Below the pieces are notes generated by a model, which did not search any database, was not told where the DNA came from, and saw only the letters and a list, made by a program, of their open reading frames with translations. A DNA stretch of 32,043 nt. It comes from an uncultured Elusimicrobia bacterium (lineage in GTDB: Bacteria; RUG730). The number at the start of each line of letters is the position of its first letter. The stretch's first letter is position 1. Below, piece by piece: positions 2,081 to 25,144 of this stretch. The translations under genes were made by a program, and so were the position numbers. Location of the stretch: NCBI GenBank assembly GCA_900321865.1, contig ONXP01000031.1, forward strand, positions 1 to 32,043, given 5' to 3'.

Positions 2081-3124
2081 TCATCTATTCATATATTTTT
2101 TTATAAATTTTTCTATTTTATCAAAAGGGATTTTTTTCATATTATCATACAAATCTACATGACTGGCATCTTTTACTATAAAAAGTTCTTTATTTTCACC
2201 TCTCAATTTCCCAAAAACATATTCAGAAAAATATCTTGAGTGAGCTTTTTCTCCGTGTACTAAAAGTACTGCATTTTTAATATCTCTTGCATTATTAAAA
2301 AGACTAGCACTCATAACATTTATAGGATTTGCCTTAGTCCAACCACCATTAGAATTTATGGATCGCTTATGATAACCCCGTTTTAATTTATAATACATAT
2401 AATAATCTTTTACGAACTCTGGTTCATCTCCTCTCAAAAATCCAGGTAATCCCGGCTCCGTTTCATAGTCATCGTTTAAGAAATCTTTGGTTCTTTGTTT
2501 GCTTAATTCTTCTTTCTTTTTATATCTAGCTTCTTCTGTCATAATATCATCATATCCATTAGCCAAAACTCTAGGCATATCATACATAGTAGAAGCGATT
2601 GTTACTTTTATTCTAGGATCTGATATACTAGCATAAATAGCATATCCTCCAAATCCACAGATTCCGATAACTGCTATTTTTTCTGAATCTACATTTTTAT
2701 AATTTGATAAAAAATCGACGGAGGCCATAAAATCTTCCGCATTTATATCTGGAGATGAAACTGCTCTAGGCTCTCCATCACTTTCACCAGTAAAAGATGG
2801 ATCAAAAGCTAAGGCTATAAACCCCCTAGAAGCAAACTCCTGGGCATATAACCCTGATGCTTGTTCTTTTACTGCTCCATATGGTCCTGAAATAGCTATC
2901 CCAATATATTTTTTATCTTCTTTAAAATTTTTAGGAAAATATAAATCTCCAATTAATTTTATTCCAAATCTATTTTTAAATGAAACTTTTTTAACTAAAG
3001 TATTTTGATTTTTAGGAAAAGTTTTATCCCAAGAATCTTGAACTTGTTGCATAAACTGTTCTTGAGAAAATAAAAAAGTAAACATTAATAAAAAACTTAT
3101 AAATTCTAAAACAATTTTTTTCAT
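2081..3124 (-). CDS. Secreted alpha/beta hydrolase of the dienelactone-hydrolase type, with Cys at the nucleophile position
   Basis: This 347-residue protein begins with a signal peptide (Lys-Lys then about 16 hydrophobic residues, with a likely cut after SQ near residue 21), so it probably works in the periplasm or is lipid-free secreted. The fold is suggested by the ISGPYG oxyanion-type stretch (residues 79-83), the nucleophile elbow GICGFGG (154-160) and the catalytic-His region DASHVDLYD (319-327). The elbow has Cys156 instead of Ser. From memory, a subgroup of bacterial relatives has exactly this GICG[WF]GG signature and the STMYDM and HGEKAHSRYFSE blocks also seen here. The substrate is unknown. 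It follows homoserine dehydrogenase by 24 bases and looks like the distal gene of that operon, although its function is unrelated. An accessory or transferred gene is plausible but unproven. Confidence 0.82.
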   Translation of the reverse strand: MKKIVLEFISFLLMFTFLFSQEQFMQQVQDSWDKTFPKNQNTLVKKVSFKNRFGIKLIGDLYFPKNFKEDKKYIGIAISGPYGAVKEQASGLYAQEFASRGFIALAFDPSFTGESDGEPRAVSSPDINAEDFMASVDFLSNYKNVDSEKIAVIGICGFGGYAIYASISDPRIKVTIASTMYDMPRVLANGYDDIMTEEARYKKKEELSKQRTKDFLNDDYETEPGLPGFLRGDEPEFVKDYYMYYKLKRGYHKRSINSNGGWTKANPINVMSASLFNNARDIKNAVLLVHGEKAHSRYFSEYVFGKLRGENKELFIVKDASHVDLYDNMKKIPFDKIEKFIKKYMNR

Positions 3125-3148
3125 ATTTTCTCCTAAATATTTTTATTG

Positions 3149-4474
3149 TTATAAATTTTCTTCTATCCTTATTACAATTATTTTATTTAAGACAAATTTT
3201 AAATCTTTAATTTCTTTTATTGCATTTTTTACATCTTTTTCCTTTGAAATATGAGTAGTAATTATAACTGGAATAGATTCTTTAGAATTAGAATTATAAT
3301 TATGTTGATAAAAAGAAGCAATAGAAATATTATACTTTCCCATAACACTGGTTATACTGGACAATGCTCCAACAGAATCTAAAACTTCTAGCCTAATATA
3401 ATATCTCGTTTCTATTTCGTTTATATTTAAAATATTTATTTTTGTTTCATTTAGACTAACAAAATTAGTTTTATTTGCTATGCCATTATTAATATTTTTT
3501 GCAACATATAAAATATCGCTAACCACACCACTTGCAGCTGGCAATTCTCCGGCCCCCTTGCCATAAAACATTACATCTCCTGCCGCATCTCCAATGATAA
3601 AAGCTGCATTATATTCGTTATTTACCGAGGCTAAAAGATGATTTTCTGAAATAAATACTGGAGAAACCCTTAATTCCAGCGAGTCCTCTTTTTTCTTTGC
3701 CACAGCTAATAACTTTAAAACTAGCCCTAAATTTTCTTTTGCAAATTTTATATCAAAAAGATCAATATCCTTTATCCCTTCTATATAAACATCTTTTAAA
3801 TCAATACTTTTTTGATAAGCAAGTGAAGCCAAAATTAACAATTTATGTGCTGCATCTATTCCATCAATATCAAATGTTGGATCTGCTTCTGCAAAACCTT
3901 TTTCCTGAGCCAAAGATAAAGCATCTTGAAATGAATATTTTTCCAAAAGCATTTTTGTCAAAATATAATTAGTAGTTCCGTTTAAAATTCCATAAATTTT
4001 TTCTATTTTATTGCTGGAAAGTCCTTCATTTAAACCCTGGATCACAGGAATTCCTGCCAGAACACTTGCCTCAAAATAAATTAGACAATTATTAACTCTA
4101 GAGGCATTATTTATTTCGTTCCAATATTTAGCAAGAGCTGCTTTATTTGCTGTCACAACATGCTTTTTTCCCTCTAAAGCCTTTATAATATAATCTTTAG
4201 CAGGATTATACCCTCCTATCAGCTCCACCACTATATCTATTTCATCATCTAAAAGTATATCGTCAATATTATTTGAAATAATAGACGAATCGAATTTAAA
4301 AGGGAAAAAACTCTGCCAAGGCTTGGAAATATTTCTTGTAACTATTTTTTTTACTTCTATTTTTCCACCAGTTTTCAATTTTATTATGTCTTCAATATTA
4401 TTTAAAATTTTTATAACACCTTTTCCAACTGTCCCAAGGCCTATTATGCCTATTTTCACCACTTTATCGCTCAT
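3149..4474 (-). CDS. hom: Homoserine dehydrogenase
   Basis: The enzyme reduces aspartate semialdehyde to homoserine with NAD(P)H, the branch point to threonine and methionine. The 441-residue protein has the N-terminal nucleotide-binding loop GLGTVGKGV (residues 13-21), the catalytic-domain blocks VTANKAALA, FEASVLAGIPVI and LNGTTNYIL, and PTFDIDGIDAAHKL further on. The C-terminal ~90 residues are an ACT domain (the stretch beginning YYIRLEVLDSVGALSSI), normally the site of threonine feedback. Length matches the monofunctional ACT-bearing family. AGGAAA lies a few bases before the ATG. The M16-like gene ends 10 bases upstream, so they are probably co-transcribed. Homoserine made here could feed the metY product encoded at 21025-22302. 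Confidence 0.96.
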   Translation of the reverse strand: MSDKVVKIGIIGLGTVGKGVIKILNNIEDIIKLKTGGKIEVKKIVTRNISKPWQSFFPFKFDSSIISNNIDDILLDDEIDIVVELIGGYNPAKDYIIKALEGKKHVVTANKAALAKYWNEINNASRVNNCLIYFEASVLAGIPVIQGLNEGLSSNKIEKIYGILNGTTNYILTKMLLEKYSFQDALSLAQEKGFAEADPTFDIDGIDAAHKLLILASLAYQKSIDLKDVYIEGIKDIDLFDIKFAKENLGLVLKLLAVAKKKEDSLELRVSPVFISENHLLASVNNEYNAAFIIGDAAGDVMFYGKGAGELPAASGVVSDILYVAKNINNGIANKTNFVSLNETKINILNINEIETRYYIRLEVLDSVGALSSITSVMGKYNISIASFYQHNYNSNSKESIPVIITTHISKEKDVKNAIKEIKDLKFVLNKIIVIRIEENL

Positions 4475-4484
4475 AAAATTTCCT

Positions 4485-5732
4485 TTATTTAAATTTTAAA
4501 ACCAAAAATTTTTGATCAAATATTTCAGGAATATTTCTATTAATTTCAGATAACGAAATATCATTTAAAAAATCATTGTACCAGTCATTATCTAAATTTA
4601 AAATTTCATTAAAACCCAAACTAAAACATCGATTTTGTTTTTGTTCTTTTTTAAAAATTTCATAAACAAAAGCTCTTTCTTTCAAAATATCAAAAGTTCT
4701 TTTATCAATTCCTTTTTTACAAAAATTTTTTATAACTTTTTTTATTTCTTCTGTAGCAAAATCTATATTTTTTTTATCTAAGCCTAAACTAATAGCCCAA
4801 TAATTTTTTTCTTTATAATTGGAATAAAAAGAATGTATTTCATAACAAAGTCCTAAGTCTTCTCTAATTTTATCAAACAAAAGAGAACTCATTCCAGAGC
4901 CCACATAATTATTTAAAAATTTAATTTTTTTATAATTTTCGTCAAAAATATCATATGTAATAAATCCCATCTGGATAAAACCTTGAGTAAATTTGGTTTC
5001 TTTTTCTATTACAAAATTATTTATATTAAACAAATTATCATTTTTGTCATCATAATCAATATTCTCTAGATTTTCTGTAAATTTTTTATAAATAATATTT
5101 AATTTTTCGTCAATATTATCAAGATTTCCGATTATACTAATTGTTAAAGGATTTTTTGTAAAATATTTGTCATTAATGAAATATTTTTTGTGAAAATTTT
5201 GTATAATATTGAAATCTATTTTATTTAAACTATCTTCTGTCCCAAGAATATTAAAACTTTTAGAATTTTGCTCTCCATAAAGATTTTTTAAAAAGTCCTT
5301 ATTGGCAATTATATGAATGTCTTCATCTTCTTGTAATAAATCATTTTTCATTTCTAGTTTTACTTTTTCTATTTCTTTTTCATCAAATTTGGGAGAATTC
5401 ATCATAGAAAAAAATATTTCCATAGCTTTATAAAATTTATCTTTCAAAAAACACATCGAAATATTTATAAATTCATTTTTTCTAGACATTTCCAAAAATA
5501 TTGCATTTTCTTCCAAAAAAATTGATATTTTGTTAGCATCACAAAAGTTTTCTTTTTTTGATCCTTTCTGAATAAGCCTCAAAATAAACTCTCCTATTCC
5601 CAAGGTTTCTTTTTCTAAAACAACAGGTATTTTATAGAAAAAAATAATATTACATATATCAGATTCTATTTCATTTTTATAAAGAATTTTTATTTTTTGA
5701 TCACCAGAAGGATTATAAATTTTAAAATCCAT
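4485..5732 (-). CDS. M16-family peptidase homologue lacking the HxxEH zinc motif, probably non-catalytic
   Basis: The 415-residue protein has the two-lobed layout of the M16B (pitrilysin/processing-peptidase-like) family. Where active members read GLAHFLEHxxxKGT, this one reads GIGEFILRLIQKGS (residues 45-58). The three ligand/catalytic positions H, E and H are therefore E48, L51 and R52. The second half keeps the substrate-side signature SGMSSLLFDKIREDLGLCYEI, with the Arg and Tyr of the R/Y pair. This is the usual pattern of the inactive partner in a two-subunit M16 pair, but no active partner is encoded in the window. No signal peptide is visible, so it is probably cytoplasmic. GGAGA precedes the ATG by about 7 bases, and the permease gene ends 4 bases upstream. 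Confidence 0.85.
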   Translation of the reverse strand: MDFKIYNPSGDQKIKILYKNEIESDICNIIFFYKIPVVLEKETLGIGEFILRLIQKGSKKENFCDANKISIFLEENAIFLEMSRKNEFINISMCFLKDKFYKAMEIFFSMMNSPKFDEKEIEKVKLEMKNDLLQEDEDIHIIANKDFLKNLYGEQNSKSFNILGTEDSLNKIDFNIIQNFHKKYFINDKYFTKNPLTISIIGNLDNIDEKLNIIYKKFTENLENIDYDDKNDNLFNINNFVIEKETKFTQGFIQMGFITYDIFDENYKKIKFLNNYVGSGMSSLLFDKIREDLGLCYEIHSFYSNYKEKNYWAISLGLDKKNIDFATEEIKKVIKNFCKKGIDKRTFDILKERAFVYEIFKKEQKQNRCFSLGFNEILNLDNDWYNDFLNDISLSEINRNIPEIFDQKFLVLKFK

Positions 5733-22534: not shown

Positions 22535-23296
22535 CTAAAAATTAAAGATCCTTAGGACATTTTTATTTGTAATTTCATCTACTTCAATTTTATTTATATC
22601 TTTTTGACGAGAAATTTCATCTCTAACATAAACAGAAAAAGAAGGTTCATTTCGTTTCCCTCTATATGGCACTGGCGAAAGATACGGACAATCCGTCTCT
22701 ATTACTAAATTTTTTAAATCTATTTGCTTTATCAATTCTCTAAGAGGAATATTGCTTTTATATGTTAAAACACCAGATAAACCTAAAACAAAACCTCTTT
22801 CTATAAAAAATTCCGCATCTTTTAAATTTCCAGAAAAAGAATGTATTGTTCCTGAAAGATTTTGATAATTTTTTAAAATATTTTTTAGATCTTCTTTTGA
22901 TTCTCTACAATGTATGATAACTGGCTTTTTTAATGAAACAGCTAAATCTAATTGCATAACAAAAACTTTTTTCTGAATTTCTTTCGGGACTAAATCTCTA
23001 TAATAATCTAATCCTATTTCGCCGATTGCAACTATTTTTTTATTATTTAATATGACACTTTCTAAACTTTTTATCATATCATCTGTCAACTCATAAGCAT
23101 TATTAGGATGTATTCCGACCGCTCCAAAAAATTCTTTTCGATTTCTAATAAAATCAGGCAAAACTTTTAAATACTTAAAATCATATCCAACTTCTAAAAA
23201 CTTAGATATTCCATTTTTTTTTGCATTTTCTATAACAATTTCTCTATCCTTTTCAAAATCATCACTTAATAAATGTGTATGAGTATCTATAAACAT
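22535..23296 (-). CDS. tatD: TatD-family metal-dependent deoxyribonuclease
   Basis: TatD proteins are two-metal TIM-barrel nucleases, implicated in DNA repair and quality control; the family is broad and exact substrates vary. The 253-residue protein has the expected ligands: DTHTHL (residues 3-8), GEIGLDYYRD (92-101), IIHCRES, GTIHSFSG and ETDCPYLSP, in the right order. Length is typical. AAAAGGA precedes the ATG. It lies 11 bases after mreC and 8 before the 62-residue gene, so it is part of the long minus-strand string. No tat secretion genes are nearby, as is usual for this family. Confidence 0.94.
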   Translation of the reverse strand: MFIDTHTHLLSDDFEKDREIVIENAKKNGISKFLEVGYDFKYLKVLPDFIRNRKEFFGAVGIHPNNAYELTDDMIKSLESVILNNKKIVAIGEIGLDYYRDLVPKEIQKKVFVMQLDLAVSLKKPVIIHCRESKEDLKNILKNYQNLSGTIHSFSGNLKDAEFFIERGFVLGLSGVLTYKSNIPLRELIKQIDLKNLVIETDCPYLSPVPYRGKRNEPSFSVYVRDEISRQKDINKIEVDEITNKNVLRIFNF

Positions 23297-23307
23297 AAAA
23301 AATCCTT

Positions 23308-24092
23308 TTAATTTTTTATTACAAAAACATATCTTAATTTCATAAACTCATCATACAAATCTACTAATACTTTTTCTATATTCCCATTATTATTTCTCTT
23401 TATTGAAGAAATTTCTCCAATATAAATTCCACTTTGAAAAACCCCGCCTAGTCCAGAAGTAAAAACTTTATCCCCTAATTCTAAATTATTATTTTTCTTA
23501 TACTCAATTAATTTCATATTAAGGATATATTTATTATTTCCAAACAAAACTCCATATATATTTTTACTAGGGACAAAACAAGAAACATTTGATTTAATAT
23601 CACTAACTAGTAAAACTTTTGAATAGTTTTGATAAACCTCTACAACTTGTCCTACAAGAAAACAGATATCATAATTAAAATAAACAACAATATCTTTTGT
23701 TTTAATGTTCTGATTTTCTCCTACATTGATTATAACAAAAGAACACCAATCATCTAATCCTCTTTCCATTATTTTAGACAAAACAATATTATTTTTTTCT
23801 AAAATTGGAGATTTTAATAAGTCTAAATATTCCAAACTTTTTTGTTTTAAATATTTTTTTTCTTCTAAAAATTTTTGAGAATTATGATAATTTTTCTGAA
23901 AATTCTGAATATTTAAACTAAAATCTTGAATTTCAAATATCTGAGAATTAAATAAAACAAAACTTCCTAACAAATCCTTTATATTACTAATAAAATATGT
24001 CTTATCAAAAAGCATAAAAACAAAACTTAAGAACAAAAAAAAATTGAAATTTTAAAAATTATCGCATCATGTATTTTTCTATTAATATACAA
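23308..24092 (-). CDS. mreC: Rod-shape protein MreC, reading frame interrupted in a T9 run near the 5' end
   Basis: MreC is a periplasmic, membrane-anchored scaffold linking MreB to the peptidoglycan elongation complex. The downstream frame, open from just after the stop at 24052-24054, encodes the coiled-coil and beta domains (VGQVVEVYQNYSKVLLVSD, GDKVFTSGLGGVFQSGIYIGEI). Its nominal TTG at 24036 has no ribosome-binding site. Upstream, TTG 24092-24090 has AAGGGG at 24105-24100 (7-base spacing) and encodes MYINRKIHDAIIFKISIFF, a short basic tail entering a membrane helix. It then meets nine T's (24043-24035) and stops after CS. One extra T would join the two into a 261-residue protein whose helix reads IFFLFLSFVFMLF. 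Transcript slippage, a sequencing or assembly error, or a recent mutation are all possible. Confidence 0.85.
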
Positions 24093-24112
24093 AATAAATC
24101 CCCTTAAACAAA

Positions 24113-25144
24113 TCAAGCATTAACCTGATTTTTTAAACGTTTATTTAATACTATTTGCTCTAAAAATTTCCCTGCACCAAGTGCAACACAATCTAAAGGA
24201 TTATCCGCAATTATAACTGGAAGATTTGTTTTGCTTTTTATCAATTCATCCAAACCTCTAAGCAACGCTCCACCACCAGACAAAACTATTCCTTTATCAA
24301 CTAAATCAGAAGCTAATTCAGCAGGAATTTTCTCCAAAGTAAATTTAATTCCATCTATAACACTTTTTACAGGATCACTTAAAGCTTCTCTTATCTCATC
24401 TGAATTAACTAAAACAGTTCTTGGAAGTCCCAGCATCAAATCACGACCTTTCACTTCCATAGTCATTTTTTCTTTTAAGTCAAAAACTGCTCCTATATTT
24501 ATTTTTACCTGTTCTGCTGTCCTATCCCCTATAAGAAGGCTATATTTTTTACGAAAATATTGAACTATTGCATCATCAAAATGATCTCCAGCTACTCTCA
24601 AAGAATTAGCTATTACCATTCCACCAAGAGAAATAACAGCGATTTCCGTGGTTCCTCCTCCAATATCAACTATCATATTTCCACTAGGCTCGTATATAGA
24701 AATATTAGCCCCTATCGCTGCTGCCATTGGCTCATCTATTAAGAAAACTTCTCTAGCCCCGGCCTGTTCTGCTGATTCTCTAACTGCTCTTCTTTCAACT
24801 TCTGTTATTCCAGAAGGAACTCCTATAACTATTCGTGGATTTATAAAAAACTTCCTATTATTAACCTTTCTAATAAAATATCTAATCATTTCTTCAGTTT
24901 TTACAAAGTCTGCTATAACTCCATTTTTTAAAGGACGATCTGCTACAATATTTACAGGAGTTTTCCCTATCATCTGCTTAGCTTCCTCTCCAACAGCTAA
25001 AACATCTTTCGTATTTTTATCAATCGCTACAACAGAAGGCTCCTTTAAAATTATTCCATCTCCTTTTAAGAAAATAAGAGTATTAGAAGTTCCTAAATCC
25101 ATTCCTAAATCAAAAGAAAAAATATTAGATATAAACGAAAACAA
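24113..25144 (-). CDS. mreB: Rod-shape-determining protein MreB (bacterial actin)
   Basis: MreB forms membrane-bound ATP-dependent filaments that guide the cell-wall elongation machinery, so a rod-shaped or elongated cell is expected. The 343-residue protein has the actin-fold signatures [12 protein letters not shown] (residues 14-25), the [13 protein letters not shown] block, [26 protein letters not shown] and [12 protein letters not shown]. The N-terminal [11 protein letters not shown] is a plausible amphipathic membrane-binding helix. The start is TTG at 25144-25142, with AGGAG about 7 bases upstream. It follows rplQ by 21 bases and precedes mreC by 20. mreD, rodA and a class-B penicillin-binding protein, the usual companions, are absent. 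Confidence 0.98.

Follow-up and report, generated by a model that had tools for sequence, protein, structure and literature searches.

The mreC gene on the minus strand of contig ONXP01000031.1 is split in two by a one-base difference at a run of nine T residues (T9), and comparison with the MreC proteins of two relatives indicates that the two frames belong to a single gene. The most likely cause, to which we give about even odds, is that the run was miscounted or that it recently lost one base and this assembly captured the loss. We infer this cause of the base difference from two things that were observed directly, the fit of the joined frames and the intact genes of the relatives.

Two frames of one mreC gene

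The window, by which we mean the whole stretch of DNA that was analyzed, is 32,043 nucleotides long. In the compared set, the phylum is represented by three genomes: the source genome (G000), one genome from the same family (G001), and one from the same order (G002), the latter two belonging to different genera from G000. The features of the locus are as follows.

22535 to 23296, minus strand: tatD-like gene directly 3' of mreC (open reading frame [ORF]; gene order as in G001)
23308 to 24051, minus strand: downstream frame, predicted to encode the remainder of the membrane helix, the coiled coil, and the MreC barrel core, up to the mreC stop codon (PF04085 match and alignment)
24027 to 24092, minus strand: upstream frame, with the putative TTG start, the basic tail, and the first part of the membrane helix (sequence and alignment)
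24035 to 24043, minus strand: T9 run, site of the frame change; read in register with the upstream TTG, it contains U UUU UUU (sequence)
24100 to 24105, minus strand: AAGGGG, Shine-Dalgarno-like site of mreC (sequence; the AAGGG...TTG arrangement is also found in G002)
24113 to 25144, minus strand: mreB, intact and directly upstream of mreC, with its minus-strand end at 24113 (ORF; 67% identical to Endomicrobia MreB)

The upstream frame opens at TTG (24092-24090), encodes the 21-residue peptide (M)YINRKIHDAIIFKISIFFCS, enters T9, and terminates at a TAA stop codon (24029-24027). The downstream stop-to-stop frame (24051-23308) begins NFNFFLFLSFVFMLFDKTYF and contains the whole of the MreC barrel core (PF04085, E value of 2.3e-34, residues 89 to 241, profile positions 1 to 147 of 147). 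There is no second lesion in 242 codons, the conserved motifs are kept, and none of the other genes in the window is visibly broken. When the upstream peptide and the downstream frame are joined at the T run, they give a protein of 261 residues that aligns with MreC from both G001 and G002 with no gap at the junction, where the joined sequence is KISIFFLFLSFVFML and that of G001 is RVYILFLLISIIFML. The basic N terminus and single membrane helix of MreC are present only after both frames are joined. The helix of the joined protein has a 17-residue hydropathy of 2.53, and the values for G001 and G002 are 2.25 and 3.02.

The start site was assessed in the same way. AAGGGG-type motifs precede any ATG, GTG, or TTG at a background rate of 8.7%, and G002 mreC also has a TTG start behind AAGGG, at a spacing similar to that in G000. 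The G002 arrangement supports the upstream TTG, which we take to be the true start of mreC. Based on this match and on the gap-free alignment of the joined frames with intact relatives, we conclude that the two frames are a single mreC gene whose frame is displaced by one base within the membrane helix. A sequence-only reading of this DNA had placed the AAGGGG, TTG, T9, and TAA elements at positions that are confirmed to the base on the minus strand. Its claim that mreC is split at T9 agrees with the PF04085 core of the downstream frame and with the alignment of the joined protein, and its claim that a hidden upstream start supplies the membrane anchor is backed by the G001 and G002 alignment and by the G002 start.

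The locus and its cell-shape partners in related genomes

The position of mreC after mreB is common to G000, G001, and G002. In both G001 and G002, mreC is a single continuous frame that starts upstream and has the membrane helix in frame. Judged from these two phylum relatives, the frame break does not appear to be conserved. In G002, the stretch that encodes this helix holds a T8 run without loss of frame, which indicates that the T-rich runs reflect the Phe codons of the membrane helix rather than a slippery site that has been retained. Of 30 MreC loci spread over many phyla, 27 had the helix in frame; for the remaining three (L011, L015, and L031), our script chose the wrong ORF. A sequence search of genome contigs returned no close MreC relatives, while the MreB search returned named neighbors, of which the nearest were Endomicrobia at 67%. 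An exact-pattern search for the flank found no second copy of the locus in viral contigs.

Genes of the SEDS type (RodA/FtsW family) are present and open in the source genome, as are two that encode a PBP dimerization domain (PBP2 family). Because mreC is otherwise undecayed and these partner families are present and open, a working MreC is to be expected, and it is likely but not certain that G000 needs one. MreD (PF04093) was not found by profile search of the G000 or G001 genomes, though mreB, mreC, and rodA-type genes are present in both, and in G002, it was found next to mreC. Two Endomicrobium genomes among the MreB neighbors (L033 and L034) have no mreC beside mreB. The space after mreB in L033 (~4100 to 4800) contains repeats whose opening resembles that of the single tRNA-Ala gene called there (ARAGORN, 4696 to 4769), as might result from the fragmentation and copying of a tRNA.

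A/T runs in the source genome

A/T runs were surveyed in 641 kb of G000, in stretches that make up 58% of the assembly (24 to 25% GC, 1.09 Mb at 82% completeness). There are 724 runs of eight, 131 of nine, four of ten, and one of twelve. The number drops sharply past nine, and runs of at least ten seem to be avoided or lost. Runs of at least nine number 136 in these 641 kb at 24% GC, or ~1 per 4.7 kb, so T9 by itself is ordinary, and the out-of-frame gene there is the unusual part. Most of these runs (103 of 136) lie uninterrupted within ORFs of at least 100 codons, at a depth of 60 bases or more, and those that we inspected by eye close to gene starts were in frame, among them a T10 in L142 and an A10 in L144. 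Only 5 of the 136 reach ten or more, and four of these are in frame within genes. Counts of nine in this assembly are thus mostly trustworthy, and runs of ten are rare. Systemic slippage as a habit of this genome was considered and rejected, since runs of at least nine in the sampled stretches are nearly all in frame.

Only two genes in the 641 kb look broken at such a run (~2% of runs), mreC and one gene on contig C16. In the latter (L178, positions 2396 to 2404, minus strand), a 476-codon ORF (2390 to 3817) enters an A9 run and stops just after it, and the sequence stays open in a different frame through a 159-codon ORF (1972 to 2448) that has no clear start. Neither half was assigned to a family by profile search or had a match in G001 or G002, and we regard this as a possible second split gene. 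The nines of mreC and possibly of the C16 gene look one base short of ten, although the numbers are small. When the 641 kb were searched for genes split in this way near the N terminus, two hits came up: mreC and a false positive in which a short ribosomal-protein-like ORF lies ahead of an unrelated, separate gene.

Explanations for the break and comparison with known systems

If the run was miscounted or has recently contracted, the population's working mreC would be continuous, and T9 would be either a read or assembly error, which the sequence-only reading had already named as an alternative, or a contraction that entered the consensus. There is a single mreC with a normal upstream TTG, its frame interrupted in this one assembly within the codons of the N-terminal helix. 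On this explanation, MreC works as it usually does, its membrane anchor, coiled coil, and barrel linking MreB to the wall-synthesis proteins. We favor this explanation because the junction is free of gaps against two intact relatives and because long runs are where counts or the DNA itself fail; in this genome, such failure is suggested by the scarcity of runs of ten or more and by the one-base shortfall of mreC and possibly of the C16 gene. A real T9 nevertheless has to be weighed, since homopolymer counts in the assembly are generally good and no other gene in the window is broken.

A less likely, though possible, explanation is that T9 is real and fixed and that full-length MreC comes from transcripts to which RNA polymerase has added a base, as an incidental rescue, perhaps with a contribution from ribosomes that slip by -1 on U UUU UUU. 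Slippage at T9 is physically plausible by analogy with other bacteria: Escherichia coli RNA polymerase gives ~5% rescue at T7 and ~10% at T8 by insertion, with a preference for poly(T) and a yield that grows with run length (PMC6260861), and in both E. coli and Buchnera, insertion into A/T runs grows exponentially as the runs lengthen (PMC5574713). The genome is small and AT rich, a run of nine sits exactly at the frame break, and the rest of mreC is intact, all of which is consistent with rescue. However, the break is absent from both relatives, just one further candidate gene was found in 58% of the genome, and full expression could be recovered by one frequent back-mutation. Mismatch repair is apparently present (a MutS family search and, by eye, a MutL-like start), and runs are therefore not expected to be unusually unstable. 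In addition, no restored reading frame was observed in the Buchnera transcriptome (PMC5574713).

It is improbable, in our view, that T9 is real and that mreC is either freshly inactivated or in a low-frequency off state, the organism perhaps losing MreC. The two Endomicrobium relatives without mreC after mreB have apparently lost it there, and the failure to detect MreD in G000 and G001, when it is present in G002, may mean that the shape machinery of the family is reduced. The absence of MreD is weak evidence, however, since this is a fast-evolving protein and the genome is incomplete, and the lack of any other lesion, the conserved motifs, and the retention of the RodA and PBP2 families all argue against inactivation.

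The sequence-only reading went further and proposed that MreC may be made only from slipped transcripts, which would set its level relative to MreB. This part of its interpretation finds no support, because the relatives are unbroken, recoding signals are lacking, and other runs are in frame; the split and the upstream start are the parts that stand. We consider it very unlikely that T9 is fixed and that an essential shape protein comes solely from slipped transcripts, with MreC at a small fraction of MreB output. We found nothing relevant in the literature on mreC frameshifts or on phase variation at homopolymers.

There is even less to recommend the possibility that the downstream frame is translated alone, as a shorter or unanchored MreC, either as the sole form or beside the full-length one. 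This frame is open from 24051, and two codons are candidates for a start of its own, the TTG at 24036 and an ATG among the first 15 residues. However, a scan of its first 50 codons found no start with a Shine-Dalgarno-like motif, which agrees with the sequence-only reading that it lacks a ribosome-binding site. Its hydrophobic stretch is also weak, with a best 17-residue hydropathy of 1.36 from the TTG and 1.06 from the ATG, compared with the much higher values of the joined protein and the relatives, and the relatives start upstream.

The least credible explanation is a selected switch that would adjust the level of MreC to that of MreB through slippage or programmed -1 frameshifting at the T run: U UUU UUU does lie in the zero frame shortly before a stop codon, in the usual -1 slippery form, but any T9 run contains it, the break is not conserved, and the downstream hairpin starts too close to the run and is no better than shuffled sequence (z of -1.39 over 71 nucleotides and -0.01 over 101 nucleotides). 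Programmed -1 frameshifting was taken to call for a stable structure 5 to 9 nucleotides downstream or a Shine-Dalgarno sequence 10 to 15 nucleotides upstream in addition to the heptamer; the heptamer is there, and neither stimulator was found, the interval just before the T run having no Shine-Dalgarno motif. The conditions for programmed ribosomal frameshifting are thus lacking at this site. The mreC case resembles dnaX-type -1 programmed frameshifting in having a slippery heptamer in the right frame, but it differs from it in this lack of a stimulator and in that shifting would yield the usual MreC rather than an alternative protein.

A close likeness is to the frameshifted genes of Blochmannia (dnaX, dnaG, and others), each genome of which has four to eight genes frameshifted at homopolymers, with eight in B. 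vafer (PMC3017870). As in those genes, a single break falls exactly in a long A/T run of an AT-rich reduced genome and hits a gene that shows no other damage and that the cell is expected to need. In contrast, some Blochmannia breaks recur in more than one species, whereas mreC is unbroken in G001 and G002, and slippage has been reported in that group for other genes, whereas the mreC break is read from DNA. Homopolymer rescue in Blochmannia and Buchnera is a known kind of case that mreC might possibly join. In tssM1 of Citrobacter rodentium, a proven case of slippage (PMC4256274), a stop likewise follows soon after a long single-base run and the remainder of the protein lies in another frame. 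However, the tssM1 run is A11, slippage was shown by experiment, both products are required, and there is a second case in Yersinia, whereas mreC is a candidate. If the base count is right, a gene for cell shape from a phylum that has been little sampled would join the slippage-tolerated frameshifts of insect symbionts. In its barrel core (PF04085), its position after mreB, and, once the frames are joined, its N-terminal anchor, this MreC is like any ordinary MreC, except that in this assembly it is not one continuous open frame but is broken at T9. If the base count is wrong, it is a reminder that one base in a long run can cost a protein its annotated membrane anchor.
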